From: Trichuris trichiura
Taxonomy: Eukaryota; Nematoda; Enoplea; Trichinellida; Trichuridae
Assembly (NCBI GenBank): GCA_037903355.1
Contig: JBAJFE010000001.1
Span: 186,001-250,000, forward strand
DNA length: 64,000 nucleotides
Direction of reading: 5' to 3'
Shown here piece after piece: positions 1,851 to 61,868 of the stretch. Made by a program: the position numbers and the translations under genes. The notes below the pieces were generated by a model that saw only the letters and a list, made by a program, of their open reading frames with translations, searched no databases and was not told the DNA's origin. Positions within the stretch are counted from its first letter, which is position 1; every line of letters begins with the position of its first letter.

Positions 1851-3724
1851 TATATATATTAGCCACCGCTGCATATGATTCACCTACCTTCTCTACTTAG
1901 TCGAGAATTCTCATTTTTTCATTTATATAAAGCGCACCACGGCTTCTCTTAGGTTTGTCATCAGTAGCGGCACTACTGGTCTTTCGTTTCAGCGCCATCA
2001 TTAGGATAAACAGAAGCTTCGGGACCAGATTCTCACGTTCAGTTTGGTAGCGTTCCAAGGCAGTTTTAGACAACGAGTCATGAGTTATGTTCTTCAGTAA
2101 TGCCGTAATTGCAAAAAATGGGCTTTAATTAGGAAAGCAGACACCAACTAACAAATGGACTGCTTACCAATCAAGATTTCGATGAAACGAGTGGATAGGT
2201 GTCTGAAGCAAGCGCGTCTAAGATCGGCAAGTCGTACCTTCTTTACTTAGCAAAAGCGCGATGGTACAGAGAATACGATTGGCGCCAGGATAAAGTCCGA
2301 GTGCTTGGACAGGCCAGGCTCTAATGCTTCTAATTAACGCAGTCCTTCGCACGTTATCTCAGAAGTTTCTTTGAATGAGGCTAATAATACTGTGCGGCTG
2401 TTTGCATAATGGTATGGAAATTCGACTCGTGAAATTTATTTTGCGAAGCTTTCAAGAAGCATCTGTTCTCTCATCAAGAATTTCACGGTTTGAATTTCCA
2501 TTGATACCATTACGCATTTTCACAAGCCCGTTAGAAAGAGCTTCATTCTCAATGTCATCCGCAGCAATTTACTGAGTAGGTAACGTGCACCCGCAGATCA
2601 GTAAATCATCGATAAGGAAACATACGACGCCATTAACTCGTCACCAATTAGCAATACAGAATTGCTCTGTGCTGTCGGCTACCCTTGCCTGACCACAGCG
2701 GAGAGCAGTCCTTGTCATAAAAAACCTGTGGAAACTCATAATAACTAAATAAATAAGATTATTTTTAATGAATAATTCGACTCGCGCTTGCAGAAACGTG
2801 AAGAACCGGTTTCACTTTTCATAGAAACAGCGAATTGCGTAATATTAAAACGTGTGGGCGGGCGAGAAAGAAACTGCGGATACGGAGGTTTTACTGTGTA
2901 TATCTGTGACCAGACATGCTATATTTAAACAAAAATTTCCATTTTATTCTTAAAGCTATCAGCGATGTAAAACACACCATAGAAGTTACCGTTAAAATTC
3001 CATATAAAAGAAAGAATAAGGGAATCACAGATTTTGCGCATAATACATTGGTGCTGACCTTCTTAAAACACCAAATTAACGAATTAAATTTTGGAAAGAG
3101 ATACTTTGGAAAGTACTCTGCAAGCCCAGTCTAATTTCAAAGTTCTTCAGTAATATGAAACACATATTCTATTAACGCTGAACTGATGGTACCGGTAACA
3201 TTTATTCAATTATCGAAGGGCTGGAAATGTTCTAATAAATCAGGCATTGTGAAAATAAGCGCCTGCACTTCATTTAACATTCTTTTTTGTGTCATAGATG
3301 ATACGTATAGTGAAGGAACTTGGAAATTAGACTAAAATAAACGAAGTTTAGCAAAACGTGAGTTGGTAATTCTTTAGTGCTTCTGAGCTCTTCTGGCCGG
3401 TAGCTTCTCTTCTGGATCACGTAACACATGCCCCTGTGCACCTAAAATAGGACGCTCGTGAGTTAAATGCAAATTTGCACATGCTGTTTTGCACTGAATG
3501 AGAAAAATAAGTAAAAAGTTTTTGAACTGTACAGTTCATGCAAAGGACAGTTTCCAAGGTGGAACAACTACACATTTTCTCCGGGCGAAAAGAAAGAAAT
3601 TAAAATAGTGTTAAAAGACCGCGTTTCTAACGCTACATGAGCTTTGACCACATTCTCTTAGCATCGTAACACTGAACCACTCGTACAGCTGTGTTTCACA
3701 TAAGAAACATGCCCAGAACCATAG
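1851..3724. other. Non-coding interval with one apical hammerhead-like foldback
   Basis: No gene or exon pattern was recognised here. The short ORFs are low-complexity or A/T-rich chance frames. The only structured element seen is the foldback at 2409-2510, listed separately. Confidence 0.5.
2409..2510 (-). ncRNA. Hammerhead-like motif on a long stem-I hairpin
   Basis: Read on the minus strand, 2471-2477 gives TTGATGA (core with C3 changed to T), stem II is about AGAA/TTCT around a 7-nt loop, and 2446-2453 gives GAAAGCTT. The flanks 2409-2440 and 2480-2510 are inverted repeats (ATGGTAT, GGAAATTC and GTGAAATT blocks), so the motif sits at the apex of a stem about 30 bp long. It belongs to the same family as the better preserved copies elsewhere. 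The C3 change would be expected to abolish cleavage. Confidence 0.5.
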
Positions 3725-3975
3725 ATGAAATAGCTTTATTACGGAAGGAGTCCTGTTTAATGTGCGATAAAATCTTCAATTCCCGAGCTTTCGGGTCATC
3801 TGAGACCCGTCTTCAGCGGTCTTAAATTATGAATATATATTCATAATAAATTCATAATAAATATATATTCAGAATTTGAGACCGCTGAAGACGGGTTTCG
3901 GATGACCCGAAAGCTCTGGAGCTGAAGATTTTATCGCACATTAAACGGGACTCCTTCATAACAAAGCTATTTCAT
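3725..3975. repeat. Head-to-head hammerhead-like foldback 1
   Basis: Two inverted arms, each about 100 bp, flank an AT-rich centre. The left arm carries the motif on the minus strand (core at 3810-3816, GAAAGCTC at 3785-3792). The right arm carries it on the plus strand (CTGAAGA at 3885-3891, stem II closing with ACCC, GAAAGCTC at 3909-3916). Outside the motifs both arms share ATTTTATCGCACATTAAAC-type and AAAGCTATT-type blocks, found again at 51066-51345. The right flank continues into CATTATGAAAACATACTG-type sequence shared with 33523-34030 and 51345. Confidence 0.85.
3875..3930 (+). ncRNA. Hammerhead-ribozyme-like motif
   Basis: CTGAAGA, then C, GGGT, an 8-nt loop, ACCC, then GAA-AGCT-C. 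Stem I is partly kept (ACCG before the core pairs with TGG after C17). N7 is A in this copy. Confidence 0.6.
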
Positions 3976-4500
3976 TATGAAAACATACTGTCCCGTACCA
4001 AGAGATCACATCTTCAAGAACCAGAGATAAGAAAAAAGTGGTTTTGAGAACTTACCTTCCTTAGAAATTATTTCAACATAAGATTTTGAAAGAGATATGC
4101 TAATTTCATACGTTTATTTGTTACGGAAAAGATATTATTTAACTCGTCCAAACTTTCAGAGTCTGGCACGCTCTGTCTTCAACGATAGCAAGTATGGCAT
4201 CTGTGTGCGGTGACTGATAGATCGAAAGCTCAGAAAAGTTAAAAATTGTATAAAAATAAACAACGTTTGCATCTTTTCCGTAACGTATAAACATACGAAA
4301 CTTCAAAATGCCGTTACCAAATCTTTCATTTTCGAGATATATTAATAAAATGCCGACTGAATGGCGACTCCGCTCCTTCTAATTACATTAATTTTAATAC
4401 TGCTGAGGTCGGGTCACGCGCGGCTCGAAAACTACGGACCACAATAAGATTTTTGTTTTCCAAACGGGACTTACTCCATGAGAAGAAACAATTTAATATA

Positions 4501-6728: not shown

Positions 6729-6846
6729 ATTTACGGTAGGGATCCCATTAACTGCATTTTACATCGCTGACGACGGGTGAAGGTGGAACACCTAAGAGCT
6801 CCGGCATTACTTTTCATGTTACTAACAGGATCTCTACCGTAAATAA
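6729..6846 (+). ncRNA. Decayed hammerhead-like motif in a small foldback
   Basis: CTGACGAC-GGGT at about 6772 is followed after a long loop by ACCTAAGAGCTCCGG, which corresponds to the ACCC-GAAAGCTCCGG of good copies with several substitutions. The interval is bounded by inverted arms TATTTACGGTAGGGATCC and GGATCTCTACCGTAAATA. Confidence 0.4.
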
Positions 6847-9362: not shown

Positions 9363-9548
9363 CACTAGAACTTCCGAAATTGACCACCTCTCTATGTCGA
9401 CCACTTCCTTAAGTTGACCGAATTTTGACCACTTGGTTGGTCCGCACGTTAATAATATAATATACCCACAACCTCTTATGTTGACCACCTCCTATATTGA
9501 CCAGTTTTTCCTGGTCCCTTGGGTGGTCAACTTATGGAGGTTTTACTG
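9363..9548. mobile_element. Tigger-type MITE, copy 2 (inverted), TSD TA
   Basis: A 186-bp element flanked by TA at 9361-9362 and 9549-9550, with CACTAGAACTTCC at one end and GGAGGTTTTACTG at the other. Its interior is the reverse complement of the copy at 1682-1850, including the AACGTGCGGACCAACC block. Confidence 0.92.
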
Positions 9549-11873: not shown

Positions 11874-12639
11874 AAATATTTGTAGCTTCGTTCTCCAAAC
11901 GTTGTTGTAAACAGTCGTGCCTGCCAAAATCAGAGAGTGGTGAATGAAGAGAGTAATGCAACTCATTCAAACTTGGATTCCTCTGTTCACTGTAATGATC
12001 TAACTTGGAAAAGTATGTTTTCGCTTATCACTTTGAAAACCTGCGTTTTTTGCTGTGCCGTTGTTGTATTTCAGAAAAAATTAGCTATTTTATGTACGCG
12101 TTTACTACAAAAACCCTACAAAGTATTTGTCTGTACTTACTAATAAACGAGTCCTCGGAGCTTTTCGGGCCCTACGTGCTCCGTTGTCATCGATAACGAA
12201 TATAGGGTTTGTGTGCTATGATTAGTGCTGGGTCACGAGAAATTAGTTTAAGACTTTAAGACTTTAAAGAAGGGGTAATGGAAAAACGTATTTAAAGTGT
12301 ATCCTGTTGCCTGGTTTCTTCGGATGTGGCTGATTTGGAAGATTGTCCATTGTTGTTGTTGTTGTTGTCCCTGTTGTGTTAAAGTGGTAGTTCAAGTATT
12401 GTTTTTCTTGGTTCTGAAATGTAATCCCCCCTCCTTCCACCATGTGGAGGGCCGGTGAAGGGTGTTTGGCGAGATGACTGGAACGGAGTTTAAAACTGAA
12501 TTAAATTGATAGTGAAAGAGGAACTGGGTAAAAGAAACTGAAATTTGGGGTAGAAACCAAAGCAGTAAAACATTGGAAAATTCAGAGGATGCGGTGATGG
12601 CAAGGCGGGAAGTAGGGGAGAAAAAGTAGGAGGAACGAG
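11874..12639. other. Non-coding interval
   Basis: No gene recognised; contains a (TTG)n tract at about 12350-12368. Confidence 0.5.
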
Positions 12640-18599: not shown

Positions 18600-20617
18600 A
18601 GCAAATTGTCTTCGATTTTTGAATTGACAACTTTAAAACAAGTTTCTTCCAAATCAATTCAATTAATACGTAGTATGGAAAACAGTTTTGAAAGACTGCC
18701 TTCCAAATGCCGCACTTTATGAACTGATAACAACGATGTTGTTGCTGCGGTTTCTGTTCCTGAAGTATTGATATCTCATTCATTGGCCATTATTTTGGCT
18801 TTTTAGAAATCTTGAACTAAAGAGTCCGCATTTTTACGTGACTGCCACGGAACGGGCCGCCTTCTTGCAAAGTAAGGGAAGCCGGAACGACGACCAAAAT
18901 GTCATACACAAGTAAAACGTCTACTGGGCTCGCTCTGCGTTCTTATCGCTTTTTTACAGTATTCCGTTAGCAGAATTCTTGTCATTGAAAAAATAAGAAG
19001 TGGAAAAAAAAGAGGAGAGGAGAAGAAGAGGAAAAAAGAAGAAAAAGTTCTTATCGTTAACTTATTTTCACTATTTTAATCTGAAAGTATTATTGATTGT
19101 GATGAAATTGTCGTTGTTGCCGAACTTTTCTTCGATTTTTCAATAGTTTATTGAACCAGTTTTCCACAAAACTGAAATTTTTTATTTCCAACAAACGAGA
19201 GCAAAGCTTTGTAGATTTGAAGGTATTAATATTTGGAATAGTTAATCGAGTGGGTTACGCTGTTCTGCACTTACACATAGAATATGATTTATTCAATTAC
19301 ATTCGGCGCTGACGTCAGGAGCAAGGGGGCTCTGAACAGTTTCGTCATTTTTTGACACCATTTAATCTTGTATATCCATAAATAATGAAAGTCTTCCGGT
19401 TTATTTTTAGTGAACTATAGCTTCAGTTAAGTAAACTGAATGATATCCGTTCGTTTTTCTGTTACTTTTGTTCGGCGATGTTTTCAAAACAAATTGCGCC
19501 CCATCATCATCGCGTGCTCAACGATTATGAATTCTATTTCTTAAAAGCACAGTACGGATATTCCCCGTTTGACGAATGTTCGCTTTCACGAAGAAGCTGA
19601 ATTTGTATCTATTTTCACTTTACGAACGAATTGTCTAGGGCCTAGGGTCTAGGCGTTTCTTCGTTTTTTACGAAGAAATGCGACGGAACACTAGCAGGCT
19701 TTCGCAACTCGTGCCGTTTTCTTGCTGTCGTGTAGCGACCAGCCATTTGTCCTTCTGCGCGAGTTTATTAAGTTTGCAGCCGTCTTGCCGACAGACGAAC
19801 GAACAGGCGCTGATTGCAAGGCCCCACAGTTCTGTCCCATATCCGTAATATCATCACTTCCTCGAATTATTTCTTCATTCTCGTGACGAGCAAATCAACA
19901 CAGTTGTAGCTAATCAGTCTCCCCTGGAATCGCCTCCTACGTCAACTGCAGTAGCCGAAGAAGCTCGGCAGTCACTCTCCACAAAGGCAGACATGTAAAT
20001 CATGCAATAGTCTCCTCCAGGTTGAGCCAAACGATCCTGTGATTCTTCCCGCCAGCCATTCCTCCGCAGTTTCAGCATTCTAGTGGAGTTAGTAGCTTAT
20101 CAGTTATGTCAGTGGAAATAGACTCTACATAAGCTGTTCTTACCTAAAACGTATTCTTGTCATTCCAGTCGCTATTTTTACTATGCGTTATGGTGCGCAT
20201 GTTTCCTTGCCTTGAACCCCACCGTCAGTAATTGCAATCTGTTTTCCGCGCAGTCGTCCTTGATCTGACCTGACTAGCCTTGAATGACTTTGATGGGAGT
20301 GAGTTTTTCTACAGTTCATCAGTGCTATACTGCTGCTAACCCTTCTGAGAGTCATCTACCATCACTCTAAATCACTTCATCGGCGTTTTACTTAGCCGAA
20401 GCATCGCAGTTTTCAAAATCGCTCTGCCAATAGCATGAGAACTGTGAACTATGTAAACTTAAACCAAAGAATGGAAATAGTATCGACATATGACAGTGGC
20501 ACAGCGCACTCTCCAAAATGTCAGCAGACACTCGACAAAACAGTCTCCTTTTTGAAACTTAAGCATTTCTGTGAATCAATGTCGGCAAGGCGAACCGTCG
20601 CATAATTAACTTGACAT
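18600..20617. other. Non-coding interval
   Basis: AT-rich and pyrimidine-rich sequence without recognised exons, motifs or clear repeats. Confidence 0.5.
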
Positions 20618-20926
20618 TATGGTTCTTCTTTTTTCTTTTTTCTTCTCTCCTTTTAACGGGTGCGTTATTCAAAATAAAAATTTTTTTTACGGCTTTTGCT
20701 ACCCTTTCGTTAAAAACGTTTATTCCAAACGTATAAACCCGCGGAGCTTTCGGGCCACACCGGGGCCCGTCATCAGCTACGGGCCCCGGTGCGGCCCGAA
20801 AGCTCCGCGGGTTTATACGTTTGGAATAAACGTTTTTAACGAACGGGTAGCAAAAGCCGTAAAAAAATTTTTATTTTGAATAACGCACCCGTTAAAAGGA
20901 GAGAAGAAAAGAGAAAAAAGAAGAAT
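20618..20926. repeat. Near-perfect palindromic foldback with hammerhead-like arm
   Basis: Arms of about 150 bp are almost exact reverse complements: the left reads AACGGGTGCGTTATTC, CGTTTATTCCAAACG and GCGGAGCTTTCGGGCC, and the right reads the same blocks inverted. The apex lies at about 20772-20780. The left arm carries a full motif on the minus strand (core 20770-20776, GAAAGCTC 20744-20751). The right arm has the stem-II and GAAAGCTC half but lacks CTGATGA, so the palindrome turns around inside the core. The same arm sequence recurs at 21253-21360 and partly at 53108-53170. Confidence 0.85.
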
Positions 20927-21244
20927 CAATTTTAATGTGTGTACGGCCACCAACAACAGAGAGGGCAACGAGTGGCGGAGAAGAAGGAAGGTGAACATCT
21001 GGAAAGAAGAAAGTTTAAAGCCCGTCTGTTTAAACAGACGGGTATATCGTTTGTTTGCTCGTTTCTTCTCATTGTTAGTGCTGCCGCCGTCGTGGAAGGT
21101 CGGTTGGGTGCTCGCCGCAAAGTCTGACTGACTAGGTGGGACCAAAGCCCGACGGGTCAAGGATCGACCTGACGGCTGAGGTTCCCTCAACGGTCGGTCG
21201 GACGTAGCGGCTTGCTAACATAATGACCAACCCGACGGCGGCGC

Positions 21245-21300
21245 ACTTAGCGCTGATGACGGGCCCCGGTGCGGCCCGAAAGCTCCGCGGGTTTATACGT
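21245..21300 (+). ncRNA. Hammerhead-ribozyme-like motif (solo)
   Basis: AGCG precedes CTGATGA at 21253-21259; stem II is GGGCC/GGCCC with a 7-nt loop; GAAAGCTC is at 21278-21285 and is followed by CGC, which pairs with GCG before the core for stem I. All core positions fit the hammerhead consensus except one extra C after A9 that is shared by the whole family. Confidence 0.65.
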
Positions 21301-21402
21301 TTGGAATAAACGTTTTTAACGAACGGGTAGCAAAAGCCGTAAAAAAATTTTTATTTTGACATTATGGTACCTTTTTTCTTTATGGGTTATTAAAATTGTT
21401 TC

Positions 21403-21586
21403 TTCTAAAAATTTGTTCCCGGAATTCCCAACCGGTTTTTAATTAACGTTTTTTGCATAAACGTTCATTCCGTAGCTTTCGGGTCTTCCTATGACCCGTC
21501 ATCAGCTGCGGAATAAACGTTTTTGCAATAAACGTTAATTAAAACACGGGATGGAAATTCCGCGAACAAATTTTTAGAAGAAGCAA
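21403..21586 (-). ncRNA. Hammerhead-like motif at the apex of an ~80-bp hairpin
   Basis: On the minus strand ATTCCG-CAG precedes CTGATGA (21499-21505); stem II is GGGTC/GACCC; GAAAGCTA (21473-21480) is followed by CGGAAT, which pairs with ATTCCG. Stem I then continues outward for about 80 bp with interruptions (arms 21403-21479 and 21508-21586, sharing AACGTT(T)ATTGCA, TTAATTAACGTT, TTCCG(C/G)GAACAAATTTTTAGAAGAA type blocks). It lies downstream, on the same strand, of the PLE relic at 22030-22990, the place expected for a PLE terminal repeat. Confidence 0.7.
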
Positions 21587-22990: not shown

Positions 22991-24166
22991 GTGCTACATT
23001 CCGCATGTTCATTGTTGTACCATTTTTTGTTCCAATTTGATCCAGAATTCTATTTATTCTAGTTTTTTGCCATTTTTATCTCATTATAATCTGTCCAATC
23101 ATTGTTCTGTTTTTGTCTATGCTATGTTCCGTTTTTATTCGTTCCGTTATTTCTCACTTTTTGCATCGTAACAGAAACTTCATGTTGTTTCACTTCTTTG
23201 TCCGCTTAATTTATTGTCAGCAAGCCTCCCATTGGAAATGGAACTGCACTTTGTAATTTCGATTAGGTAAGACCAAACGTCACCGACTTCCACACCTTAG
23301 TCACGGTTGTATGAGTGATATACAGATTCTTTAATTTTCCTCTTGCGTAGATGGCGTTCATGAGATAAAACTTTTCCTTGAAATGGATTATCGCGCAGTC
23401 CGCCACTGCCGATGCCTTTAGGGCTCTGTTCATAGCGACGGAAGGTCTGAGACTAGCGGGGGTGCGTTTCACTTTGCCGTAGCGTTCTCTTTGCAGCAAG
23501 ACGTCCATCACACAGTGAACGCTTGTACTTCGCCTTATACAGTGACAAAAGATCCCTTAGTTTCTACCCTGGCCGTGATTTGCTATCGTTCTTTGCTGTG
23601 AATGCGTGATTGCTCTTTGTTAGTTTTCCAGCGTTCAACTCTTTAGTTTGGTATTCAATCTTCTTGTCTCTCCGTAGGTTCATTGCCCTTGCTTTGCGGC
23701 CGTTCGTTTAACTTTCCCAATTTATCGCGCTGCAATTATCACCGTTGCTCAACCGCTTGTACGTTTTGGCATTTCGTTCAAACCTTGCTTGCCCGTTCAC
23801 TTCCATTTGTTTTCTGACCTTCAGCTGCAGCTGTTATTTTATCCCACTTGATGCAGCCCATTCGTTTCGCTGCTATTCTTTTGCTGTCGTTCAATTAATT
23901 CTTTAGCCTTTTTTGCCTTCTAATACGCCAAAGTCCCGCTTTACTTTATTTTTCCGTATATTGAACGACGGCGTTTTGCTGACACTGTCTTTACGAACTT
24001 GTTTCGTAGCCTTAGCTCACAATTATTAGACCTATTAATTGGATGCTAGTGCTGTGACACGAACAACTGTGAGATTTTCGCCAAGTACTTTTTGCGGCAG
24101 CTGAACGGATGCTTTTGCCAGTAAAAGTCATTCAAATAGTAGTTAGGGCGTGCATTTATATCATGA
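22991..24166. other. Non-coding interval, T-rich
   Basis: No PLE RT palm motif or other gene could be read. It contains the second copy of the 8100-8270 repeat (23457-23600). Confidence 0.4.
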
Positions 24167-24620
24167 AAACTGGATGTTTTGTAACGGGTTGAATTTTCAT
24201 GGTTGTAAGGTCTTCTACGGCTTTTCCCGTTTTTCGTTGTGCTGTTATCTGTAATTAAACTAAACAACTGCTCTACCAACGGATGGATGAGCCGTTACTA
24301 AGAAAAGTACAGATATCAACGCACTCAACTTTTTTGTTGTTCAAAGCTTTCGGAACGCTCTAGTTCCGTCGTCAGTGAGGTGGTGGACCACGAAACTAGA
24401 GCCTCACGAGGCAGTAATAGTCCACCACCTCACTGACGACGGAACTAGAGCGTTCCGAAAGCTTTGAACAATAAAAAAGTTGAGTGCGTTGATATCTGTA
24501 CTTTTCTTAGTAACGGCTCATCCATCCGTTGGTAGAGCAGTTGTTTAGTTTAATTACAGATAACAGCACAACGAAAAACGGGAAAAGCCGTAGAAGACCT
24601 TACAACCATGCATTTATATC
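24167..24620. repeat. Head-to-head hammerhead-like foldback 2
   Basis: Arms of more than 150 bp share CTTACAACCATG, CGTAGAAGACC, TAACAGCACAACGAAAAACG and ACCAACGGATGGATGAGCC blocks in opposite orientation. The left arm carries the motif on the minus strand (core 24369-24375, GAAAGCTT 24344-24351), the right arm on the plus strand (CTGACGA 24433-24439, GAAAGCTT 24457-24464). The centre is about 55 bp. The outer block reappears at 40470-40590 and, decayed, inside the SMC1 pseudogene at 61185-61270. Confidence 0.88.
24425..24475 (+). ncRNA. Hammerhead-ribozyme-like motif
   Basis: TCA-CTGACGA, extra C, stem II GGAAC/GTTCC around a 6-nt loop, GAA-AGCT-T, then TGA pairing with TCA. N7 is C here and stem II differs from the GGGTC/GACCC copies while staying paired, which is covariation. 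Its mirror copy is at 24338-24385. Confidence 0.65.
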
Positions 24621-24729
24621 ACGTGCAAACAGAAAACCTGACTTTGTCTCAATACATTTAAGCCTGCTTTTTCGCTCGCGCGTTTAAGATATCAGAAATT
24701 TTAGAAAAGCTTTCCATTATAACTGTGGC

Positions 24730-33522: not shown

Positions 33523-34030
33523 TTCATAATGAAGAAATTTATTACGGATATGTCCCGTTTGTTTTGTATATAAAAAGACCCCGGAGCTTTCGGGTCATTC
33601 GAGACCCGTCATCAGCGGTCTTAAGTTGTTGATATGATTCGTGGCAGCGAGTGCCCTAATGTTTCTGAGGATTTTAAAGCGGGCATTTTTAAAGTTTTTC
33701 GTTGGTAGGTTCTGGTTTCTGGGTCTGTCAGCGCACTTCTTTTTCTTGTTCCGTATATCGTGTAGATTGTGTCTTTGCTGGGTAGTTTCGAACATTTTTT
33801 GTTGTTGGTTCACTGTTTTTTCATTTGGCATCCATTTTTCTTCCTTTCTTTCTTCTTTTTTCTTTTTCTTTCTTTGGTCTGCTCTTTCTGCTCTTTCTTT
33901 GGTTTTTTCTTTCTTTCATTCAACAACTTAAGACCGCTGATGACGGGTCTCGAACGACCCGAAAGCTCCGGAGTCTTTTCATATACAAAACAAACGGGAC
34001 ATATCCGTAATAAATTTCTTCATTATGAAA
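33523..34030. repeat. Head-to-head hammerhead-like foldback 3
   Basis: Inverted arms of about 100 bp flank a 300-bp spacer. The arms share TTCATAATGAAGAAAT, TTACGGATATGTCCCG and GAGCTTTCGGGTC blocks. The left arm has the motif on the minus strand (core 33609-33615), the right on the plus strand (33937-33968). The right flank continues with GAAAACATACTGTCCCG, which is complementary to the CGGGACAT block inside the arm. Confidence 0.9.
33929..33978 (+). ncRNA. Hammerhead-ribozyme-like motif (best plus-strand copy)
   Basis: AAGACCG precedes CTGATGA (33937-33943); one extra C; stem II GGGTC/GACCC with loop TCGAAC; GAA-AGCT-C (33961-33968). The following CGG-AG-TCTT pairs with AAGA-CCG to give a stem I of 3 bp, a two-base bulge and 4 bp. 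Stem III is only the palindrome AGCT, which would need a second molecule (dimer) to form. Its mirror copy on the minus strand (33576-33625) has the same layout with a GG bulge. Confidence 0.72.
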
Positions 34031-34273
34031 ACATACTGTCCCGCACCAAGAAACCACGTTTTCAAATACCGTTTCGTATTATACTTTGTTATCGTTGCGA
34101 GTAAAACGGCAAGCGTTACTCAATATCAAACATTTGACTAGCACAGTAATAATACGTTTCATAGTAGTTTTTAATTTTAATAAATAAACGTTTCGTGTAG
34201 CTTCGGCATAAAACAGAATGCAAAATTAGAAGACGCAGTTAAAAAGTGCTTTATTTTCGACTTAAAGCCATAC
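34031..34273. other. Short AT-rich interval
   Basis: Nothing recognised between the foldback and the LTR element; the last five bases CATAC are the target duplication. Confidence 0.5.
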
Positions 34274-38594: not shown

Positions 38595-38837
38595 TTCTTC
38601 CTTAAACAAACTATTTAGATGATAGCGTCTTACATAAATTCACGACGCGCGTAGCGAGCTTCGTAAGTAACATAGAGGGGAGAAACCTCAACAGATCCTG
38701 CAAAACTAATATATCACAAGTACAACATAGAACAACGCTTTCGCATTCCATTATCCTGAAAACATTACAAGTGACATTGTGATCATATAACAGGGTCAAA
38801 ATTCAACCAATGAACGCACAAAATATCAGTTTTCACA

Positions 38838-40267: not shown

Positions 40268-40600
40268 AAAGCTTCAAAATGCCTACCAACGACCAGATGA
40301 GCAAATTGTCAGCGAAAACACAGAACAGTATATACCGTACGTATCGGAACGGTTCTTGTTTCGTCGCCAGCAGTGCTAGGGAAAACGTACGATACACATC
40401 GTTCTGTACTTTCCCTAACAGTCTGCTCATCCATTCGCTGCCAAGGCTTTTGAATTTTAATTACAGACTTATGGTTGTAAGGTCTTCTACGGCTTTTCCC
40501 GTTTTTTCGTTGTGCTGTTATCTGTAATTAAACTAAAACAACTGCTCTACCAACGGATGGATGAGCCGTTATTAAGAAAAGGTATCTCGTTATCCGCGGT
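40268..40600. repeat. Decayed PLE-type foldback with hammerhead remnant
   Basis: Inverted arms AAATGCCTACCAACG ... GATGAGCAAATTGT and ACAGTCTGCTCATCC ... GGCTTTTG flank a decayed motif on the minus strand at about 40330-40375 (CTGGCGACGAAAC ... CGTTCCGATACG, compare CTGACGACGGAAC ... CGTTCCGAAAGC). To the right, 40470-40590 repeats the outer arm of foldback 2 (GTAAGGTCTTCTACGGC ... ACCAACGGATGGATGAGCCG). Confidence 0.7.
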
Positions 40601-43787: not shown

Positions 43788-43811
43788 AGTCTCGGGGGCT
43801 TTGTCGTCAGC

Positions 43812-44258
43812 CTACTTCCAAGCAGCTGTCCACGCGTGTGAAATTGGGTCGTACGTCACTTTAAAATCCTTCTCATCAATTTGCATTCCGGCGTCCGTAC
43901 CTGCGCATGCCGCCAATCCGATCGGTTTGAACTGCACTTGCCCTTGGCAGTCCAATAGAGCTCCTCCGAGGAGCCGAATCCCGCTCATGCCAAGTACGAA
44001 GTCGAAGCCAAGGGGACTTTCATTGGAAACTACAACGTCCACAACTGCTGCTTTTCTCCCATGTGGTTCCAGCTTAACAGTACCCACTCCTGCGCAGCGA
44101 AGTTCATCGCCACTGATTGTGCGCAGGCAGATGGGCTGCCTCTTCCATTGACGGCAGCAAGGCGCGTAAATAACACAAGTGCTGCATCCACTATCCACCA
44201 GCACGCGACGATTCACACCATCTACCCGCAACCAAGTGAACGGTACTGCCTCGTTCAA
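43812..44258 (-). pseudogene. Aspartic protease of the gypsy-like element
   Basis: VLVDSGCSTCVIYAPCC is the retropepsin active-site loop (DSG), followed by FDFVLGMSGIRLLGG, the second conserved part, and SHAWTAAWK at the end. It is homologous to the protease at about 35900-35450. Confidence 0.9.
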
Positions 44259-44406
44259 TGAAGGAAGGGCACCGGCATCGGAGCACCCTCCCTGACTTCG
44301 TTTCCCGGAATCGCTTCGGGTCTTCTTGTTGTCTCACGATCAGACCAACGGCCGCGCGTCCGTCTTCTTCCATTGTTGCCCGCTAGTGGCCGTAGGACTC
44401 CTGACG

Positions 44407-45030
44407 TTACATCATGCAGTCTCGGGCAAAGTGATTGGGCCCGCCACAAACGTAGCAACGCCACTTGTCGCCCGAACCTCCAGCCTCAGGTGTAAAGCTG
44501 CTTGAAACGGCGACGATTGCCACATCGCTGTTTCCACTGGATGGGCCTCTTGACAGCATTGCACGAGCACGGATCAGCAGCTCATCCAGTGTTAGTGCCT
44601 CCATACGAGCTCCCGCCCGCAGCGCATCTTGAATCTGCTCTGGAAGACCGCGAACAAACGCGCTAGCCAGAACTTTCTCCGACACTCCGCCAGCGAGAAG
44701 CGCCAACTGTCGGCGAGCCGCCAGAAATGCGGCTGCCGTTTCCCCATCTCGGAGTTTTCTCATTATGAGCTCATCATAGGCGATGAATGGATCAGGGGCA
44801 AATGCAGTCAGGATTCTGTCCCTCACCTTTTCGAGCTTGCCTTGGTCCTCAACTGCCATCTGGTCGTAGGCCTTGAACGCGGCGCCAGTCAGCCTCAACC
44901 CAATGACGCGAGCAAAGTCGTCGATTCCGCATAGTCTAAGGCGGATTCAGCTTTCCGCAACCATTCGTAGGCAGAAAGAGACGAGCCATCAAATTCAGGG
45001 ATTACTTTGATGTCCATCGTTGCGACTCCA
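44407..45030 (-). pseudogene. gag of the gypsy-like element
   Basis: Reads VIPEFDGSS near 45000, then after a break LTGAAFKAYDQMAVEDQGKL, LALLAGGVSEKVLASAFVRG and a zinc knuckle CYVCGGPNHFARDC near 44415. A frame break lies at about 44925. Confidence 0.85.
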
Positions 45031-50575: not shown

Positions 50576-51065
50576 GCATGCAAAGTTATAAGTGTTCGTC
50601 TTACCATCAAATCATCTAACCCATAAGGATGTGGACCGTTTCCACTTTCTGAGGTGAATATCACAGAATACTCATCTTCTCTGAAGAATCTGGTCGTCAG
50701 TTGACAGGGTCGGTTTAAAACAATGTTTCTAAGTCTGTTGCGTTTGATAACAAGTCGATCAGTTACCTTATATGAAGTGCTAAAATTCGCTGTGTAAGAG
50801 TTTAGGATCTGATCATTAACAAAATATGAGTTTCGCTGACATCGCTCACGCCTAGTTTTCCCAATAAAAATTAGAAAATAAGGTACTTTAGTTTTTCATA
50901 CTTCTTGTTGTCCTACTTTCATGATTTAATGCAGAAGAAAACAGCTCACTGAGTTGCACAGAAATAACGCAGAGCTTTTTAGATAGTCAGTCGCCTCTTC
51001 TGTGCCAAGCGTTCGAATTCATGTAAACTCAACGAACAGTTTTAGTCCTACAATAAATGATAAAA
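50576..51065. other. Non-coding interval
   Basis: Nothing recognised downstream of the DUF229 pseudogene. Confidence 0.5.
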
Positions 51066-51345
51066 TTTAAAGACGAAATAGCTTTATTACGGCGAGCGTT
51101 CCGTTTAGTGTGCGATAAAAACCTTGAACTCGGAGCTTTCGGGTCACTCGAGACCCGTCTTCAGCAGTCGTAAATTATAAATAATATTATACTTATAATT
51201 AACGACCGCTGAAGAATGAATTATAAATATAATATTATTTATAATGTAAGACTGCTGAATACGGGTCTCGAGTGACCCGAAAGCTCCGGAGTTCAAGGTT
51301 TTTATCGCACATTAAACGGGACACTCCGTAATAAAGCTATTTCAT
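51066..51345. repeat. Head-to-head hammerhead-like foldback 4
   Basis: Arms share AAATAGCTTTATTACGG, TGTGCGATAAAAACCTTGAA and CGGAGCTTTCGGGTCACTCG with their inverts. Left motif on the minus strand (core 51158-51164, GAAAGCTC 51133-51140); right on the plus strand (CTGAATA 51255-51261, G8 lost; GAAAGCTC 51279-51286). A third partial core ACCGCTGAAGA lies in the centre near 51206. Closely related to foldback 1. Confidence 0.88.
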
Positions 51346-51664
51346 TATGAAAACACACTGTTCCGTACCAGGAAATCATATCTTCAAAATTTAAAGACAG
51401 TGTTATTTAAAATAATGACTTCAAAATTGCCCAGCTTTTCTTGAAAGCACCGTTCTTTGCATATAGTAAACCATCAGTAAAGGACATGCCATTAAGAGAA
51501 GATTTCCTAAAAGTATTCGCAAAAGCATAGCTGGTGGATGGTCATTTAACAAAAAATTTTGAAACTTTTCATTAACAACGTAGAAACTCTGAAGCTTGCC
51601 ATGCCAATTATGGAAACGTCCTGAGGCGGACGATGGGCCTACTTATGCCATTACGCAAAAGATC

Positions 51665-51890
51665 ACTATAAAGTTTTATTACGGTACAACCCGTTGACAA
51701 TGAAGAAAATTTTACTCCATAGCTTCCGGTTCCACTCACAACCCGTCCTCAGCGGTAAAACCTTAATGGAAATGAATCCAACCCATTAGAGCTCTACCAC
51801 TGAGGACGGGTCAAGAGCGTACCCTAAAGCTACGAAGTAAAATTTCGATTATCATCAACGAGTTGTACCGTAACAAAACTTTATAATGAG
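51665..51890. repeat. Head-to-head hammerhead-like foldback 5
   Basis: Arms share AAAGTTTTATTACGGTACAA, CGTTGA(C/T) and TTTTACT(C/T)C blocks in inverse orientation. Left motif on the minus strand (CTGAGGA, complement of 51746-51752) and right motif on the plus strand (CTGAGGA 51800-51806, with G12 changed to T). Confidence 0.85.
51710..51760 (-). ncRNA. Hammerhead-like motif with the best stem I
   Basis: TTTTACCG precedes CTGAGGA; GGA-AGCT-A is followed by TGG-AG-TAAAA. Stem I therefore pairs 3 bp, leaves AG as a bulge, and pairs 5 more. N7 is G. The GAA triplet reads GGA, so cleavage is doubtful in this copy even though the fold is well kept. Confidence 0.6.
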
Positions 51891-52151: not shown

Positions 52152-52604
52152 TCATGCGATCGGTGGTAGTACGTCTTCTTGGGTCCACACTTCCAGTTTT
52201 GTCTTCAATTGCTGACGACGTTCACGAACTTTTAAGCATTTTGCCTTAGTATTTACTCGTTTCTCACGCAGTTCCTGCTTGCGCTGCGCATTGAAACTGT
52301 TTTCCCTGTTAATCATATCGTCCAACCTTTCGGTGAGCCTTTGACGAGCAGTCACGCGGTTGTTCTGTAAAACTCGGCTTTCGTGAACCTTCACCCACAG
52401 ACCAGTGGGAACATGCTTAAGGAGAACACAGTTTTGTCTTTTGTTTACATTTTGACCACCCGGTCCACGACCAGTAATGAACTGTTCCATTAGTTCCTCT
52501 TCCTTCAACTCAGGAAATCGATACTCTTTTCTAGAAATCCAGCGCATATTCATCTTCTGGAGGAATGCCTTTCGAAGGGAGCAGCACCGGCAGTTAAACA
52601 ACAT
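52152..52604 (-). CDS. MTRFR: Mitochondrial GGQ release factor, MTRFR/C12orf65 type
   Basis: This class of small release factor frees stalled peptidyl-tRNA in mitochondria. The 150-residue product has the catalytic GGQ loop (FITGRGPGGQNVNKRQNCVL, about residues 42-62), then LKHVPTGLWVKVHESR and a long basic helical tail (QRKQELREKRVNTKAKCLKV) that contacts the ribosome. It lacks the codon-recognition domains of full release factors, as C12orf65/ICT1-type proteins do. The N-terminus (MLFNCRCCSLRKAFLQK) is basic and free of acidic residues, fitting a mitochondrial targeting peptide. Human C12orf65 is 166 residues. MTRFR is preferred over ICT1 (MRPL58) because of the spacing after GGQ, but the distinction is inference. 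Confidence 0.9.
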   Translation of the reverse strand: MLFNCRCCSLRKAFLQKMNMRWISRKEYRFPELKEEELMEQFITGRGPGGQNVNKRQNCVLLKHVPTGLWVKVHESRVLQNNRVTARQRLTERLDDMINRENSFNAQRKQELREKRVNTKAKCLKVRERRQQLKTKLEVWTQEDVLPPIA

Positions 52605-53829
52605 CTAGAAGAACGCGATCGCTTCAGCTAGTTAGTGCCACGTGAATACGATTGAACAGGGTGTCTTAGCGTAGTTTGAATAATTACTAACAAGAATTAA
52701 GTTCCATATTTAGCACCCAACGTGTCTATTTTTCACTTACTTTTCTAAGATTCTATGATACAAAAACATTCTAGCAGCTGTCACGTTCAGTGGGCCTCCT
52801 ATTTCAAAGTAAACAGAAAAACAATCGTGCTTAACCCCACCTTAATTGCCGCACAACTTAACTATGCATTCTAAACACCTCGACGTGAGCTAGAAGCTTA
52901 CTTAAAGTATGAGTTAGGTTAACCGCTGTATGCTTAATGACTTATGGTTGAAAACTAAAGTACATCTTGCCCAAGTAAGTCCCGTAACATAGAGCAAACA
53001 AACAAACAAACGAACAAATGCTTTATTTGGGAACACGGAGCTTCCGGATCTTAAGTGGTCCGTCATCAGCGGTCGTACAATAATGACAGATTAGGTAATA
53101 CTTAATGGTTACTTTTTATTTTGAATAACGCACCCGTTAGAAAGGAGAGAAGAAAAGAGAAAAAGAAAAATCAATACTTAATGGTATGGTATATTTGTCT
53201 ACTTAATGGAAAGATGAAACTTTATGGCATTGTTTCTAGCAATTTTATTTTTATTAACTAAGCAGCTCAGCAGGCAGATGCTCATCTTCGCTCTTTAAAG
53301 TTTTGAACAGTAGTTCAGGTCTTTTTTTGAAAATTATCGAACAATGTAAGCAACAAAGGGCAAAGTAGTTTAACGATATACAATGACAGGGGATGACTGG
53401 AAATCTTTGTACAGGAATTTTCCATTTAAACAGCTGAAACCAGATAAAAGGAACAGGGTGAAATGTCACTTACTTTCTTGCACATAAAAATGTTAACCAT
53501 GCAATATGTTGACAGCAACTACAACTGCTAGCGAACAGTCCAAGTATAATGGTGTATATCCCTTTTTTTACAAAAGGAACAACTAACAATTTTCGAAGAC
53601 CGCTGAGCTAGTGTCATCGGTTTCCAAAAAAACGTGAAAGCCAAGCTCAATGAGTTCTCCCAAATGACTGGCATTTACAGAATGTTGACTATTTATTAAA
53701 TACGCAAAAAGTAAGGAACAGCTGGCAAGATGATTACGTTTCCATAACAACGAACGATTGCAGCGGAAGAACCTTAGAATAGTAAATGTCAAACGGCTGA
53801 CTAAGGCTACTATACAATTCCAGAAGAGA
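52605..53829. other. Interval between MTRFR and the kinase pseudogene
   Basis: It contains the hammerhead-like copy at 53030-53078 and a stretch (53108-53170) repeating the outer arm of the 20618-20926 foldback (TTTTATTTTGAATAACGCAC ... GAGAAGAAAAGAGA). Minus-strand ORFs near 53254-53470 and 53583-53830 could be 3' exons of the kinase but are not recognisable. Confidence 0.45.
53030..53078 (-). ncRNA. Hammerhead-like motif, GGA variant
   Basis: GACCG precedes CTGATGA (complement of 53063-53069); stem II GGACC/GATCC is partly paired; GGA-AGCT-C follows (53038-53045). Flanked by (AAAC)n at 52997-53015. Confidence 0.5.
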
Positions 53830-55420
53830 AGATAGGTGAACAAAAATTTTACGAAAGCTTGGGCGGCTAGAAGGTTCAGGACGCCAGCAGGCCAGCATTA
53901 AACTATAGCTATAACGAAATGAAACTAACACCTGCAGTAGTACATACAACCTACACATCCTTTGGACTTCGGTATGGTAGACAAAGGCGTAAGCCGGTCT
54001 GCAAGGCGCTTTTGAGGTCTTGATTGTCCATGTTGGCTTAAGGTACAGCACCACGAGTGATAAGTTTCCACAAGAGAACTCCGAAGGATCACTAAAGATA
54101 GAACGGTAAACCGTGCGGCGTTTTGCAGCGAAACTGTTGCAATTACCACGTCTGTCTTTTCATTGAAAATATCACTGTTGAAGAGGCTTTCAATAGCCAT
54201 CCTTTTGACTGGTAACTTTGCTTTCTTCTCCCATTGGCATAATGCTCAGCCAAGGAGATGGTAAGGCCAAAGCCTGCAACGATAACGCGGCCATCGCTAT
54301 CCACCCTATGAATTTTGCAATTTGTTGAGGACACTTCGTGCCATTTAAAACGCGTTAATATTTACATGCAGTTACGCGCTGCCAAATCTCGATGCACGTA
54401 GCAATGGCTGGAAAGATAGCATATCCCCGCAGCAACTTGGCGTGCAAAGTGAATAAGATCAACAACGGTAGGCTCCTTTGAATAACAATTAGAATATTTC
54501 GAAAGACAGGATGTCTTTTAACAGGCTTGAATACGTTCATAGTAGATCTTCAGATTCACGGGTTTGGCCTGTTGGATGTATCTGTAAGTAAACTTCAAAA
54601 TGCCCTACCAACGGATGGATGAGCAAATTGTTCTGTATTTTCTCTTACAGTTTGCTCATCCATCCGTTGGTAGGGTATTTTGAAGTTTACTTACAGATAC
54701 ATCCAACAGGCCAAACCCGTGAATCTGAAGATCTACTATGAAACAATTAGAATAGACTAATAATTACGGAAACTATTAAAATACTCGTTTTATATCAGAC
54801 ACGAATGTACGCGAATCTCCTTTGTTCATTAACGAGAGGATCATAACGGACAAGCCGCTACGGGTCCACGAAACAGCTATAAAGTTTAGAAGGTTTGCAT
54901 AGTCCAATTGGCGCATCGAAGCAGCTTTGCGCCAGAACGTTTTTAGATCATTTGCGCTTAGGCTTCTTTCGCCTAAGAGGAAATAATAGGAATCCGAAAC
55001 CGAGTAACAAAAGGTTTATGTAATATTTCTGATTATTTTTACAGCTACAGTGTACCAACAAGCGGACGTTCGAGGCTTGTAGGATGCTTGCAACACTTGG
55101 CTGAAGTGGCCTTAAAACGAAGTGATTATGGCGGCTCTGGTAACCATTGCGTTGTACCTTTTCCGATTAAACTTTGAACATTTACATGATCGAATGGCAC
55201 TGGCAGATCGTCGACAGCCTTAAATAGATTAGAACTGATTGCTTGCAAAGAGATTCCGACGCCATGACCCCATAAACCTGCAAGAAACATCACTGCTTGC
55301 GTAACGCTTTCTTCCGAAGGCTTACTGGAGATTGAAGAATGAATGGGAAGCATAGGAGGATGTCTGGAGCTTGTTTGCGCTAGCATCTTCCATTTGCCGG
55401 AAAACGCATAGCAGGTCATC
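53830..55420 (-). pseudogene. MET/RON-like receptor tyrosine kinase, decayed but intron-containing
   Basis: The kinase domain can be followed exon by exon on the minus strand. VNVQSLIGKG (about 55180) joins across a 47-nt intron to HFSQVLQASYKPR, the glycine loop; VAVK lies near 55040. Then come the helix-C region (LKTFWRKAASMRQLDYANLL, about 54930) and the hinge-proximal [27 protein letters not shown] and [11 protein letters not shown] lie at 54480-54361, VDSDGRVIVAGFGL at 54300-54262, PVKRMAIESLFNSDIF at 54200, SFGVLLWKLITRGAVP at 54080 and LMLACWRPEPSSRPSF at 53915-53860. Damage: the DFG Asp is Gly (54266-54277), a one-base shift before PVKRMA, and a TAA at 54040-54038. A foldback sits inside it. 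The [11 protein letters not shown] and TRGA pattern favours the MET/RON family. Confidence 0.85.
54537..54741. mobile_element. Near-perfect 205-bp foldback inserted in the kinase pseudogene
   Basis: The ends CATAGTAGATCTTCAG and CTGAAGATCTACTATG begin arms of about 92 bp that are nearly exact inverts and include AAATGCCCTACCAACGGATG and TTTGCTCATCC. The apex is a short ACAGAACAATT-type spacer. The ACCAACGGATGGATGAGC block is shared with foldback 2 and 40268-40600, so it belongs to the same PLE-linked group, but this copy has no hammerhead core. No clear target duplication. Confidence 0.85.
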
Positions 55421-59494: not shown

Positions 59495-61677
59495 TTCTTC
59501 AGAAAAGATGGCCAACTAACGTGTTAAGCGCGTTGGGGCAAAATTGATTTTGGAAGACCTGCGTGTGCAGTCTTGTTGCAATTAAGATCTTATGTATGGT
59601 GTTCCAATGGGGAAGCCCATTAGCAATTGTTGCCGGATGAAAATGACATACTGCTTTGATGACGGAAAAATCTCGGTGTTTTCTCGTTCTGTGATCGGCA
59701 GCAGTGCCGAATACAGGATTGACAATGAGGTGAACAAATGGAGATTTGATTTTTTTTTTATTTTTGTTTTTAGATAGTCAGTCACGTGCGTTACGTGGAA
59801 GCCTTAGAGAACATTAATGTATTCATCCGCGCTCGCAATTTTCTCGTTTTCCAAGGAGCTGTCGAAAGTGTTGCTCTGAAAACGCCAAAGGAATTGACTC
59901 AACCTTTGGAAGAGATATCCCGGTGCAAATTTGCTAGCTCCGCGTTTTTTCATTCGTTTTCACGTTGATCGGGAGAGTTGAAGGACGACTATGAGCAGGC
60001 CAAGGCCGAAATGATGAAGGCAGAAGAAAATACTCAGTTGAATTATCGAAAGAAACGAGAAATCGCTGCCGAACGTCGAGTAGCAACATGGAAAAGGAAG
60101 GAGCTGAAAAGTACCAGAAAATGAGGGAATCTTTGGTGATTTTTGAACGCCCTTCCGTGCAACACAACCAACCATTTTTTACAGACAGACACAAAAGCGC
60201 TTCCATCTAATGTAATTGCATCGAAACGATTGCGAAACAGAACTCATTATACCCGTTGTTGGCATGTCAAGTCGGCGAACTTAAGAATAAACAAACGGAA
60301 CAGAATCTTCTTGTGTCCAAACGTTCTTGATTTAAGAACATTTGCGCGAGAAGCGAAAGCACTACAGGAAAACCTTACACGAGGTCAATAAATTGGGACA
60401 GCTAATTAGCATACAGGTGAGGTAGAGCTTCCGTTCGTCTCTTGTGAACTTCTGTTTGTTCACTTCTCCTTAATAGAAAGCCGACATAATAAGAGTGAAG
60501 CTGAATTTCATAAAAGTCAAGGAGAGTGTGCGTCACTCGGAGAGAGTTAAAGGCGTTCGAAAAGGTAAGACGAAATGTGGAAAGGTGTAATGAGCAGTTG
60601 GAGCAATTAGAGGCTCAACTTCAGGAAGCGGTCGCCTTGCTGCCTTGCTCCAGGAACCTCAAATATGAGATAGGGAACTCAGCCAACAACGGGTATAATG
60701 ATTTCCATCGTTCTGCGTTAAGAAGCTTCAGCGAGTTTTCTGAGCTTGATAAGTACAACTCCCTGAAAGGGCAAGTAGTCCGCCAGTGTGCAGCCATACA
60801 ACAAGAGCTGACGATGTTGGTTGGGGAGCAACAGATAGACCAAGAATTAATCGACAACGACGAACAATGTCAATACGATTTCACGCAGAAGGTAAAGGCA
60901 GAAGGAAGCTGAGCTAGAGACGCTTCATCGAAGATTGGAAAAACTGAACGACAACGTCCAGTGAAATGCATGGGCACCTTTGGCCCTATGAACAATCTCT
61001 CCATTGATAGATCAACGCAGAATGAAATCAGAGAACAACAGCAAAGATTACTCATCACTGAACAGAAAGTCAGCCTCGCAAACTCGCGATTAGAGCAAGT
61101 GACCCAAGAAGTGGATTTTCATGATGGTAAATTCTTCAATACTTCTTTGTTTAGCCCATTGATAATGTCTGAAATCAAATCGAAGCAAATGCCCTACCAA
61201 CGAATGAATGAACAATTATTAAGGAAAATTCAGGACAAACTTAACAGTTTCAGAGCTTTCGGGATTTAACAGTTAAGAAGCACCCAGTTTTCAAGACCTC
61301 GAAGTGGATGATATAAATCGGCAGCTCAATGAAGCGAACGTGGATACTTCTGAGAATTCGAGGCTTATGAAGAAACAGGAATTGGTCAAGAATCTGAAAC
61401 GAGTTTCCACTTGTGTTGTGGTGTGTCAACAATTTTCTTTTGTGTTAATATCTATCCTTTGTTTCCCTCCAGTACAGCCGTCTTGTCGATTTTTGTCAGC
61501 CGGTAGATAAGCGGTACCTTCTTGCCGTCACCAAAGTGCTCGGCCATTACATGAACGCTATTACTACTGATACTGAGAACACCGCATGAGAATGCGTTAG
61601 AGACATGAAGGGACAACGTATCGAACCTTCCTTCCGCTCGATTACATTGACGTTAAATCGATTGATGAGAGACTGAG
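59495..61677 (+). pseudogene. SMC1 cohesin subunit, truncated unprocessed pseudogene
   Basis: The head and first coiled-coil of SMC1 are readable in order. About 59495 gives KMAN*RVKR; 59588-59740 gives DLMYGVPMGKP and SVIGSSAEYRIDNE; after an intron 59773-59920 gives [20 protein letters not shown] and LEEISR; 59952-60120 gives GELKDDYEQAKAEMMKAEEN with a one-base shift before the KYQKM segment; 60590-60960 gives coiled-coil; 61300-61400 gives more; 61472-61677 gives YSRLVDFCQP, YLLAVTKVLG and the hinge entry LPLDYIDVKSIDERLR in a shifted frame, ending at a GTAAG donor. Stops occur near 59508 and at 61587-61589. The Walker A exon and everything after the hinge entry are absent. Introns are kept, so this is a duplicated or unitary gene remnant, not a retrocopy. 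Confidence 0.9.
61185..61270 (+). repeat. PLE-type fragment inside the SMC1 pseudogene
   Basis: GCCCTACCAACGAATGAATGA, ATTAAGGAAAA and TTCAGAGCTTTCGGG appear in the order seen at 24281-24355 and 54600. It separates two coiled-coil coding pieces of the SMC1 remnant, so it inserted after or during decay. Confidence 0.6.
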
Positions 61678-61819
61678 GTAAGCGTTCGTTTACTCTCTGC
61701 TCTTACATGTACTTCTTCCAAAGAATGAATATTACTGTCATCCAGTTTACAGTAAGTTTTTATGTATAGTAGAATTTTGCCTACGTCAGAACAAGTTTTT
61801 ATTAAAGGAAACAATATTA

Positions 61820-61868
61820 TTTCTCCGGAGCTTTCGGGTCTACTCCTGACCAGTCTTCAGCGGTCTGT
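61820..61868 (-). ncRNA. Hammerhead-like motif (solo)
   Basis: GACCG precedes CTGAAGA (complement of 61854-61860); stem II GGTC/GACC; GAA-AGCT-C at 61828-61835 (complement), then CGG pairing with CCG. Intact core apart from the family's extra bases after A9. Confidence 0.6.

Follow-up and report, generated by a model that had tools for sequence, protein, structure and literature searches.

Motifs resembling the hammerhead ribozyme recur throughout a 64,000-nucleotide stretch of the genome of the nematode Trichuris trichiura, which raises the question of what these motifs are, which element carries them and how they came to stand in inverted pairs. The stretch, here called the window, covers positions 186,001 to 250,000 of contig JBAJFE010000001.1 (G000:C24:186001-250000) in a 62-contig assembly of 72.7 Mb. 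We propose that the repeats bearing the motif, or arms, are probably the terminal repeats (pLTRs) of Penelope-like elements (PLEs), each holding a hammerhead predicted to self-cleave, and that the inverted pairs likely result from both cut ends of the target DNA priming reverse transcription.

The motif is present in far greater numbers than chance would provide. Strict cores, defined by the pattern CTGANGA-C-N10-20-GAAA(GC or CG)T-H with no requirement for stem pairing, occur 11 times in the window versus 2 across 200 dinucleotide shuffles of it, and stem II forms 5/5 pairs in 10 of these cores and 4/5 in the remaining one. In addition, a covariance model (R2) built from 49 arms, all of them from outside the window, finds 18 matches in it at E<2e-5. 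These matches cover 16 of the 19 sites listed in a first-pass annotation (3780, 3875, 6772, 20738, 21245, 21464, 24338, 24425, 33576, 33929, 51126, 51247, 51710, 51792, 53030 and 61820), and together with the excess of strict cores over shuffles they confirm the dispersed hammerhead-like family that it had described. Of the other listed sites, 40340 is matched weakly (E 0.0018), and R2 finds nothing at E<=1 for 2409 and 12845. The latter two may be decayed arms, because a single-mismatch core forming 5 stem II pairs lies near 2409 (at 2477, minus strand) and because 12845 adjoins an inverted-repeat partner (12098-12189) that holds a weak match (12142-12204, E 0.0056). Conversely, R2 recovers two copies absent from the list, at 4389-4450 and, partially, at 20779-20805. 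The variable core position N7 indeed takes all four bases, with T at 33937, A at 3885, C at 24433 and G at 51800. The arms often sit as divergent inverted pairs within single insertions that bear target-site duplications (TSDs), an arrangement missing from the earlier description.

Genome-wide, the cores number 3,554 of the AGCT type and 404 of the ACGT type. A stricter pattern, CTGANGACGG-N6-20-GAAAGCTCCGG, which fixes only the two 5' G's of stem II, matches 646 and 657 times on the two strands versus 0 for the reversed pattern, and among its first 100 listed matches stem II forms 5/5 pairs in 80 and 4/5 in 20. This tally and the comparison of strict cores with shuffles in the window are the stem II evidence that is free of the filter used to choose arms for alignment, which demanded at least 4/5 pairs in stem II and tolerated no more than two mismatches in the core.

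Support for stem I comes from the same aligned arms, whose 5' strand of this stem played no role in arm choice; on the 3' strand, CGG is fixed by the search pattern, which retrieved loci L001-L008 and served as a guide to L009-L028 and L035-L038. Over 73 distinct arms and 7 pairs, 46 cells are changed on both sides versus 22.7 expected, and neither the covariation score nor the number of paired cells is reached in any of 500 shuffles, which treat the copies as independent and do not allow for their relatedness. Coarser measures are reached in 19/500 shuffles (pairs with double changes) and in 68/500 (further pair types), while sliding the partner strand by 1-3 columns lowers the score from 0.23 to 0.16 or less. 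The count was made with all 73 arms because the hand-made removals behind alignment A2 favour stem I: A2 holds 66 arms, the seven left out being L010:1203, L027:1151, L035:163, L035:212, L036:214, L038:242 and window:20728, mostly for a 5' flank that crosses the inner junction, and alignment A3 additionally omits L021:171. Without guidance, RNAalifold recovers stem II together with the three inner pairs of stem I. The latter stem consists of 3 bp, two unpaired bases and then up to 4 bp, and the free minimum free energy fold of 33923-33984 contains both stems with the two-base bulge. The bulged stem I that had been read from several copies is backed by this fold and by the covariation across the 73 arms, and covariation in the aligned arms supports both stems.

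The arms therefore combine the type I hammerhead core (CUGANGA, GAA, A15.1-U16.1, H17) with covarying stems I and II. Core positions are constant while N7 and the loops drift, a contrast that is partly due to selection, since arms were chosen with at most two core mismatches. The monomer has no stable helix III: there is only an AGCU or ACGU tetramer, for which pairing is possible solely between two RNAs. From these sequence features a hammerhead fold and self-cleavage are predicted, and in 33923-33984 the cut would fall after the C at 33968 (between AGCTC and CGG).

The carrier, as judged from its sequence, is a PLE that encodes a putative telomerase-like reverse transcriptase (RT) and carries GIY-YIG motifs. 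At L029 inverted arms surround a PLE coding region that is spread over two frames and contains RT and GIY-YIG motifs, L030 has the same arrangement on the other strand with coding sequence in several frames, and at L011 a 779-codon open frame is followed by one arm. The L011 open reading frame (ORF) matches RVT_1 in Pfam (E 1e-12), YVDD is found in all 8 sequences of an alignment that includes PLEs from Trichuris and ticks, with which the ORF also shares YIGET, and telomerase TERT heads the Foldseek matches of its AlphaFold model (mean pLDDT 66, RT part mostly 70-96); a telomerase-like RT with YxDD, as in PLEs, is thus present. The GIY-YIG region C-terminal to the RT is recognised by motif and profile only: G(L/V)(I/V)Y...YIGET motifs align with tick PLEs, one of them Pfam-positive for GIY-YIG, and the L011 ORF profile matches endonuclease II (GIY-YIG, 2wsh; E 0.0022, profile positions 606-654). 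When the genome was searched with the L029 frame, 78 matches were scored out of 2,843 candidates. For lineage 1, 8 scored ORF matches lie on C1 below 4.14 Mb, and 6 of them are accompanied on the same strand by a core situated at their 3' end or no more than 600 bp from it, as read by eye from printed lists (chance 0.016 each). The best database relatives of this PLE are in T. muris and T. suis. A second lineage, whose best matches share 51-57% identity with a T. muris PLE, has its own tail peptides (including MKIQPVTKHPVF) and in some hammerheads ACGU instead of AGCU; an ACGT core at C1:5142737 follows one of its copies (C1:5142844-5144901). Two side observations concern these copies. A short stretch reading by eye as an inverted repeat (L029:1276-1445) interrupts the L029 PLE frame, and in L011:961-4140 the target sequence AGAATGAAT is common to a short paired insertion and the ORF-bearing copy, as though one site had been used twice or a composite had moved.

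The first-pass annotation had placed the motifs in the class of PLEs and retrozymes. The PLE assignment holds, since the same arms flank PLE coding sequence (L029, L030) and the tail found at the end of many arms represents the beginning of the PLE ORF, as deduced from L032, where the tail ATGAAAACATACGC...CATTTTCAAG continues unbroken into the ORF. Retrozymes are small non-autonomous elements that spread via ribozyme-made circular RNAs, and type I hammerheads in short animal repeats belong to them in several phyla according to the accessible part of one report (PMC7229834). Such an origin is nevertheless highly improbable here: members with RT- and endonuclease-coding sequence exist, the tail and ends obey PLE rules, and neighbouring cores are mostly inverted pairs rather than the short direct tandem repeats of retrozymes. 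Among the first 100 listed strict (AGCT-type) matches, all 16 neighbour pairs within 400 bp are oriented (-,+), and among 100 listed ACGT-type matches 9 of 11 such pairs are (-,+) and 2 are (+,+). Moreover, in 10 of the 16 close pairs the two cores are identical, versus 5.6% for random pairs, and in the remaining six they differ by 1-3 bases, for which reason both arms of one insertion appear to derive from one source.

The tail comprises the first 13 codons of the PLE ORF, and 31 distinct tails encode MKTYGPVPRNHVF-like (MK...-type) peptides, one with an internal stop and one ending in a stop. In 30 arms, 50-71 nt separate the predicted cut from the ATG downstream of it. Exactly one tail was recognised in 17 of 25 arm pairs. 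In 16 insertions with both ends scored (excluding L025, which the automatic end scoring misplaced), the tailed end falls at ATG+36 to +42, the other end at -9 to +5, and target duplications measure 12-18 bp with up to one mismatch. Terminal repeats that end at or in the ORF start, a one-sided tail of about this length and a TSD of variable length are all PLE traits. Pairing within the tail gives weak support to a hairpin, as 32/2000 shuffles reach the pairing observed.

In the window, the insertions and arms are the following (strand in words; E-values are those of R2).

33525..34066, plus: PLE-derived insertion with the best preservation in the window; its hammerhead arms are inverted and its tail is on the right; next to the untailed arm, the spacer opens with sequence that resembles, by eye, the ORF 3' end of other copies
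33511-33524 and 34067-34080: TSD TACCGTTTCGTATT of this insertion
33568..33629, minus: hammerhead arm on its untailed side, 80.8 bits, E 8.8e-25
33923..33984, plus: hammerhead arm on its tailed side, 81.6 bits, E 4.4e-25
34025..34063, plus: its tail, first 13 PLE ORF codons (MKTYCPAPRNHVF)
3727..4016, plus: short inverted-pair insertion, TSD AGAACCATAGAT (3715-3726) and AGAACCAGAGAT (4017-4028), tail 3977-4015
3769..3830, minus: hammerhead arm, E 3.6e-17
3871..3932, plus: hammerhead arm, E 1.9e-15
4389..4450, plus: degenerate single hammerhead arm, E 7.2e-9
6753..6817, plus: single hammerhead arm with longer stem II, E 2e-6
20624..21355, strand unassigned: insertion of a third, GC-rich arm subfamily (stem II GGGCC/GGCCC), TSD TTGACATTATGGT at 20611-20623 and 21356-21368; three arms in one insertion, stem II very GC-rich; the tail region reads ..APVKR.. 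by eye, possibly a third PLE lineage
20743..20777, minus: hammerhead arm, E 1.5e-10
20779..20805, plus: partial hammerhead arm, head to head with the preceding one, E 1.4e-5
21248..21292, plus: hammerhead arm, E 4.7e-12
21457..21519, minus: hammerhead arm, E 5.4e-12
24164..24608, minus: insertion of the second PLE lineage (stem II GGAAC/GTTCC), TSD TGCATTTATATCA at 24151-24163 and 24609-24621; arms of 191 nt, 99% complementary
24164..24200, minus: second-lineage tail, encodes MKIQPVTKHPVF
24333..24386, minus: hammerhead arm, E 1.6e-8
24419..24480, plus: hammerhead arm, E 8.4e-10
40322..40384, minus: weak decayed arm, ACGU type by eye, E 0.0018
51075..51385, plus: inverted-pair insertion, TSD AAAATTTAAAGAC at 51062-51074 and 51386-51398, tail 51347-51385
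51117..51178, minus: hammerhead arm, E 3.8e-18
51241..51302, plus: hammerhead arm with a changed core base (CTGAATA), E 1e-18
51704..51766, minus: diverged hammerhead arm, E 7e-9
51786..51848, plus: diverged hammerhead arm, E 2.9e-10
53023..53083, minus: single hammerhead arm, E 2.1e-7
61812..61874, minus: single hammerhead arm, E 1.1e-12

Terminal inverted repeats of about 70-190 nt might also suggest DNA transposons of the terminal-inverted-repeat (TIR) or miniature inverted-repeat (MITE) kind whose ends resemble hammerheads by chance, the more so as a transposase ORF (DDE_1, E 3e-48) lies between two arms in L025. This ORF is nested in the spacer inside its own shorter inverted ends, TSDs of 12-18 bp are found, one end carries an extra 40 nt, and the stems covary. 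For the copies studied, which show neither symmetric ends, nor a fixed short TSD, nor a transposase of their own, such an origin is refuted, and its overall probability is close to nil. The L025 transposase was likewise rejected as the carrier's own gene, being nested with its own ends; it belongs to an element of the pogo/Tigger kind (L025:1004-3602, DDE_1 / Tc5-HTH) within the spacer of a PLE inverted pair.

How the inverted pairs with a single tail are written is best approached through PAc, a Poseidon-type PLE of Anolis carolinensis, whose protein cuts and extends both target strands in vitro (PMC11167929). Reverse transcription of PAc begins within the first part of the ORF instead of at the 3' end of the RNA, and the stretch separating its two start sites is the tail (PMC11167929). 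As in Trichuris, PAc has an RT and GIY-YIG ORF, a hammerhead at the pLTR/ORF junction, and a tail within the ORF beginning that is bounded by the two ends where insertions start; in contrast, the PAc hammerhead overlaps the ORF start and is cut 26 nt after the start codon, whereas the cut predicted here precedes the ATG, and PAc RT starts lie 111-118 nt into the ORF, well beyond the tail end seen here (PMC11167929). The two ends of an insertion fall on opposite sides of the tail, and given the PAc precedent we infer that both target 3' ends prime, one to each side of it. The PLE protein would make a staggered cut in the target; one target 3' end would prime on the element RNA at about ATG+40 and copy the tail, and the other would prime near the ATG. 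Each cDNA would then extend upstream through the ribozyme until the template ended or the enzyme stopped, and the two cDNA ends would be joined mid-insertion. The RNA 5' end is tentatively placed 16-21 nt upstream of the ribozyme core because several copies (L003, L013, L024, L026 and L037) turn symmetrically there, so that many short insertions would approximate two ribozyme leaders back to back. Other turns lie 13 nt (window 24375), 25-36 nt (window 3816, L022, L027, window 51164) and 145 nt (L023) upstream of the core.

The inverted pairs could alternatively arise by self-priming, in which a single target end primes and the 3' end of the cDNA folds back and copies itself; for the rotifer Penelope, self-priming on an antisense template has been proposed, according to the part of the paper available (PMC3846280). 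The small loops and near-equal arms of L003, L013, L024, L026, L037 and L023 suit this route, as do the single tail in 17/25 pairs and the more variable position of the untailed end. The lengths to which arms reach inwards speak against it. On the tailed and the other side, respectively, these are 3 and 9 nt in L035, 2 and 20 nt in L036, and 14 and at least 24 nt in the window pair 33615/33937, so that the untailed arm is the longer, which is impossible for a copy of the first cDNA; in L038 (31 and 4 nt) the tailed arm is the longer. In L030 the tailed arm extends through the ORF and the other arm matches it over 50 nt, the tailed figure being left unused in the length comparison because it is a self-comparison; for L029, subfamily differences shorten the figures. 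Furthermore, untailed ends gather at the ATG, a position corresponding to PAc's second RT start site. As the sole route, plain fold-back of one cDNA was set aside in view of the copies with a longer untailed arm, and it still explains equal-armed palindromes; as the general explanation we consider self-priming possible, at perhaps a third of the weight given to priming from both target ends.

The ribozyme would probably serve to separate units by cleaving PLE transcripts that are in tandem or result from read-through. Since it lies just upstream of the ATG, cutting is predicted to free the ORF RNA from the upstream transcript. A different view is that the fold is a structural relic, retained as a protein-binding RNA after cutting was lost. 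The minimal stem III and the scarcity of cut-site footprints agree with this, and so does the finding that the PAc ribozyme required its protein and was dispensable for insertion (PMC11167929). The core, in contrast, is fixed while N7 and the loops drift, with the bias of arm choice already mentioned, and stem III changes by a double, self-complementary switch; we regard loss of cutting as rather unlikely.

This switch is seen when cores with the same surrounding pattern are counted. Next to the AGCT and ACGT types there are only 26 AGGT and 37 ACCT cores, with 0, 2, 0 and 0 matches in the reversed-pattern controls for AGCT, ACGT, AGGT and ACCT, and the double change ACGT is more than 10-fold commoner than each single step. 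An excess of this kind is as expected if self-complementarity matters to the RNA encoded. In short flanked strings, duplex energies are -3.9 kcal/mol for AGCU and -3.7 for ACGU, compared with +2.0 for AGGU and +4.3 for ACCU. As the tetramer is self-complementary and AGCU alone cannot close the stem, the ribozyme may act as a dimer of two RNAs joined through AGCU or, in the second lineage, ACGU. Dimeric action is documented for the type I hammerheads of newt and axolotl, which share the weak helix III and the predicted gain from dimerisation; these dimers form between direct repeats of one RNA, whereas the arms here are inverted and two transcripts would be needed (PMC7229834, PMC6155905, as far as the accessible parts extend). 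A more speculative extension, which we regard as unlikely, is that the dimeric hammerhead serves to pair RNAs within the PLE integration complex: joined via an AGCU:AGCU or ACGU:ACGU stem III, two element RNAs would each feed one RT protomer, one starting at the 3' foot and one at the 5' foot of the tail, and this two-template, two-strand priming would write the one-tail inverted pairs. The AGCU/ACGU pair offers a natural compensatory-mutation comparison for the dimer model.

Several observations weigh against the proposal that these are PLE terminal repeats with an active ribozyme, paired by two-ended priming. A scan of the window with Rfam 15 gave no hammerhead family at the gathering threshold or at E<=10, and its sub-threshold matches were mostly microRNA-precursor families that resemble inverted repeats; this silence fits a motif without helix III. 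In the window, covariance-model searches of the kind that the first-pass annotation had called for gave matches with a model from related arms and no hammerhead with the Rfam families. With regard to the carrier, the L011 ORF copy has no assignable inverted arm, Pfam finds no GIY-YIG in its ORF, and the GIY-YIG part of the AlphaFold model is poor. Only 32 of the 100 listed strict matches stand in close pairs, in a sample chosen by a single strict pattern, and among neighbours within 3,200 bp orientations are mixed, with 20 (-,+), 4 (+,-), 2 (+,+) and 2 (-,-). Seven of the 25 arm pairs have no recognised tail and one has two. The two-tailed pair, L014, joins arms of two subfamilies, each with its own tail, and three of the tail-less pairs (L009, L038 and window 24375/24433) have a diverged tail on one side by eye. 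L023, with near-equal arms of 145 nt and a 12-nt loop, is equally consistent with cDNA fold-back. The copies also carry little footprint of cleavage: a recognised core lies upstream of 55/98 arm-end motifs, the other 43 include many chance matches, and among about five ribozyme-less arms read in those 43, none starts at the predicted cut. The dispensability of the PAc ribozyme for insertion in vitro (PMC11167929) points the same way. With respect to dimer activity, stem III is too short to be stable in the monomer, the unconstrained two-RNA fold favours another long pairing over the stem III dimer, and ACGU may represent one ancestral change later amplified by a successful lineage. One window arm, 21504-21574, may start at the predicted cut, as read by eye.

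PLE hammerheads, inverted pLTRs and one-sided tails are already published. In the accessible parts of the sources, conserved and usually minimal hammerheads without helix III are described in all available PLE sequences (PMC6155905), and those of Cervera and de la Pena 2014 (via PMC7229834 and PMC6155905) are, as here, of type I, situated in repeats and without helix III; here, in addition, one lineage has ACGU replacing AGCU. The Penelope elements of Adineta vaga, again from the accessible part of the report, likewise have inverted pLTRs, a one-sided tail (31 bp), palindromic junctions and ORF-start codons inside the pLTR and tail, with TSDs of 8-10 bp, and differ in their very low copy number as compared with the thousands of cores here (PMC3846280); the words hammerhead and ribozyme are absent from that paper. 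A literature search over titles and abstract beginnings, with most subscription papers outside its coverage, returned no work on hammerheads or Penelope elements in Trichuris; the single paper that came up for each of these subjects together with Trichuris dealt, by its title, with something else. New here are the pattern of one tail and two start points among the insertions sampled and the switch of stem III from one self-complementary tetramer to another. They bear on PLE integration, on the frequent inversion of PLE repeats and on the purpose of PLE ribozymes, and as the insertions of about 4,000 cores record start sites, junctions and ribozyme variants, both the two-ended priming and the dimer models can be tested by counting.

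The window also holds other features. A palindrome at 54536-54742 (96-nt arms, 98% complementary), with a related stretch at 61187-61228, shares the CTCATCCATCCGTTGGTAG motif of the second PLE lineage and lacks a hammerhead match. Inverted repeats of 153 nt (1682-1834 and 9396-9548, 93% complementary) bound a stretch of 7.5 kb, and their GGTTCTACTGTA-type ends resemble, by eye, those of the transposase element nested in L025. Long frames at 26875-31989, 34251-36720 and 41330-44946 resemble gag/pol pieces of long terminal repeat retrotransposons by eye. Host exons lie at 38007-38639, encoding a TAF11-like protein (95% identical to T. suis), and at 52155-52562, encoding a protein with an RF-1 domain (PF00472).

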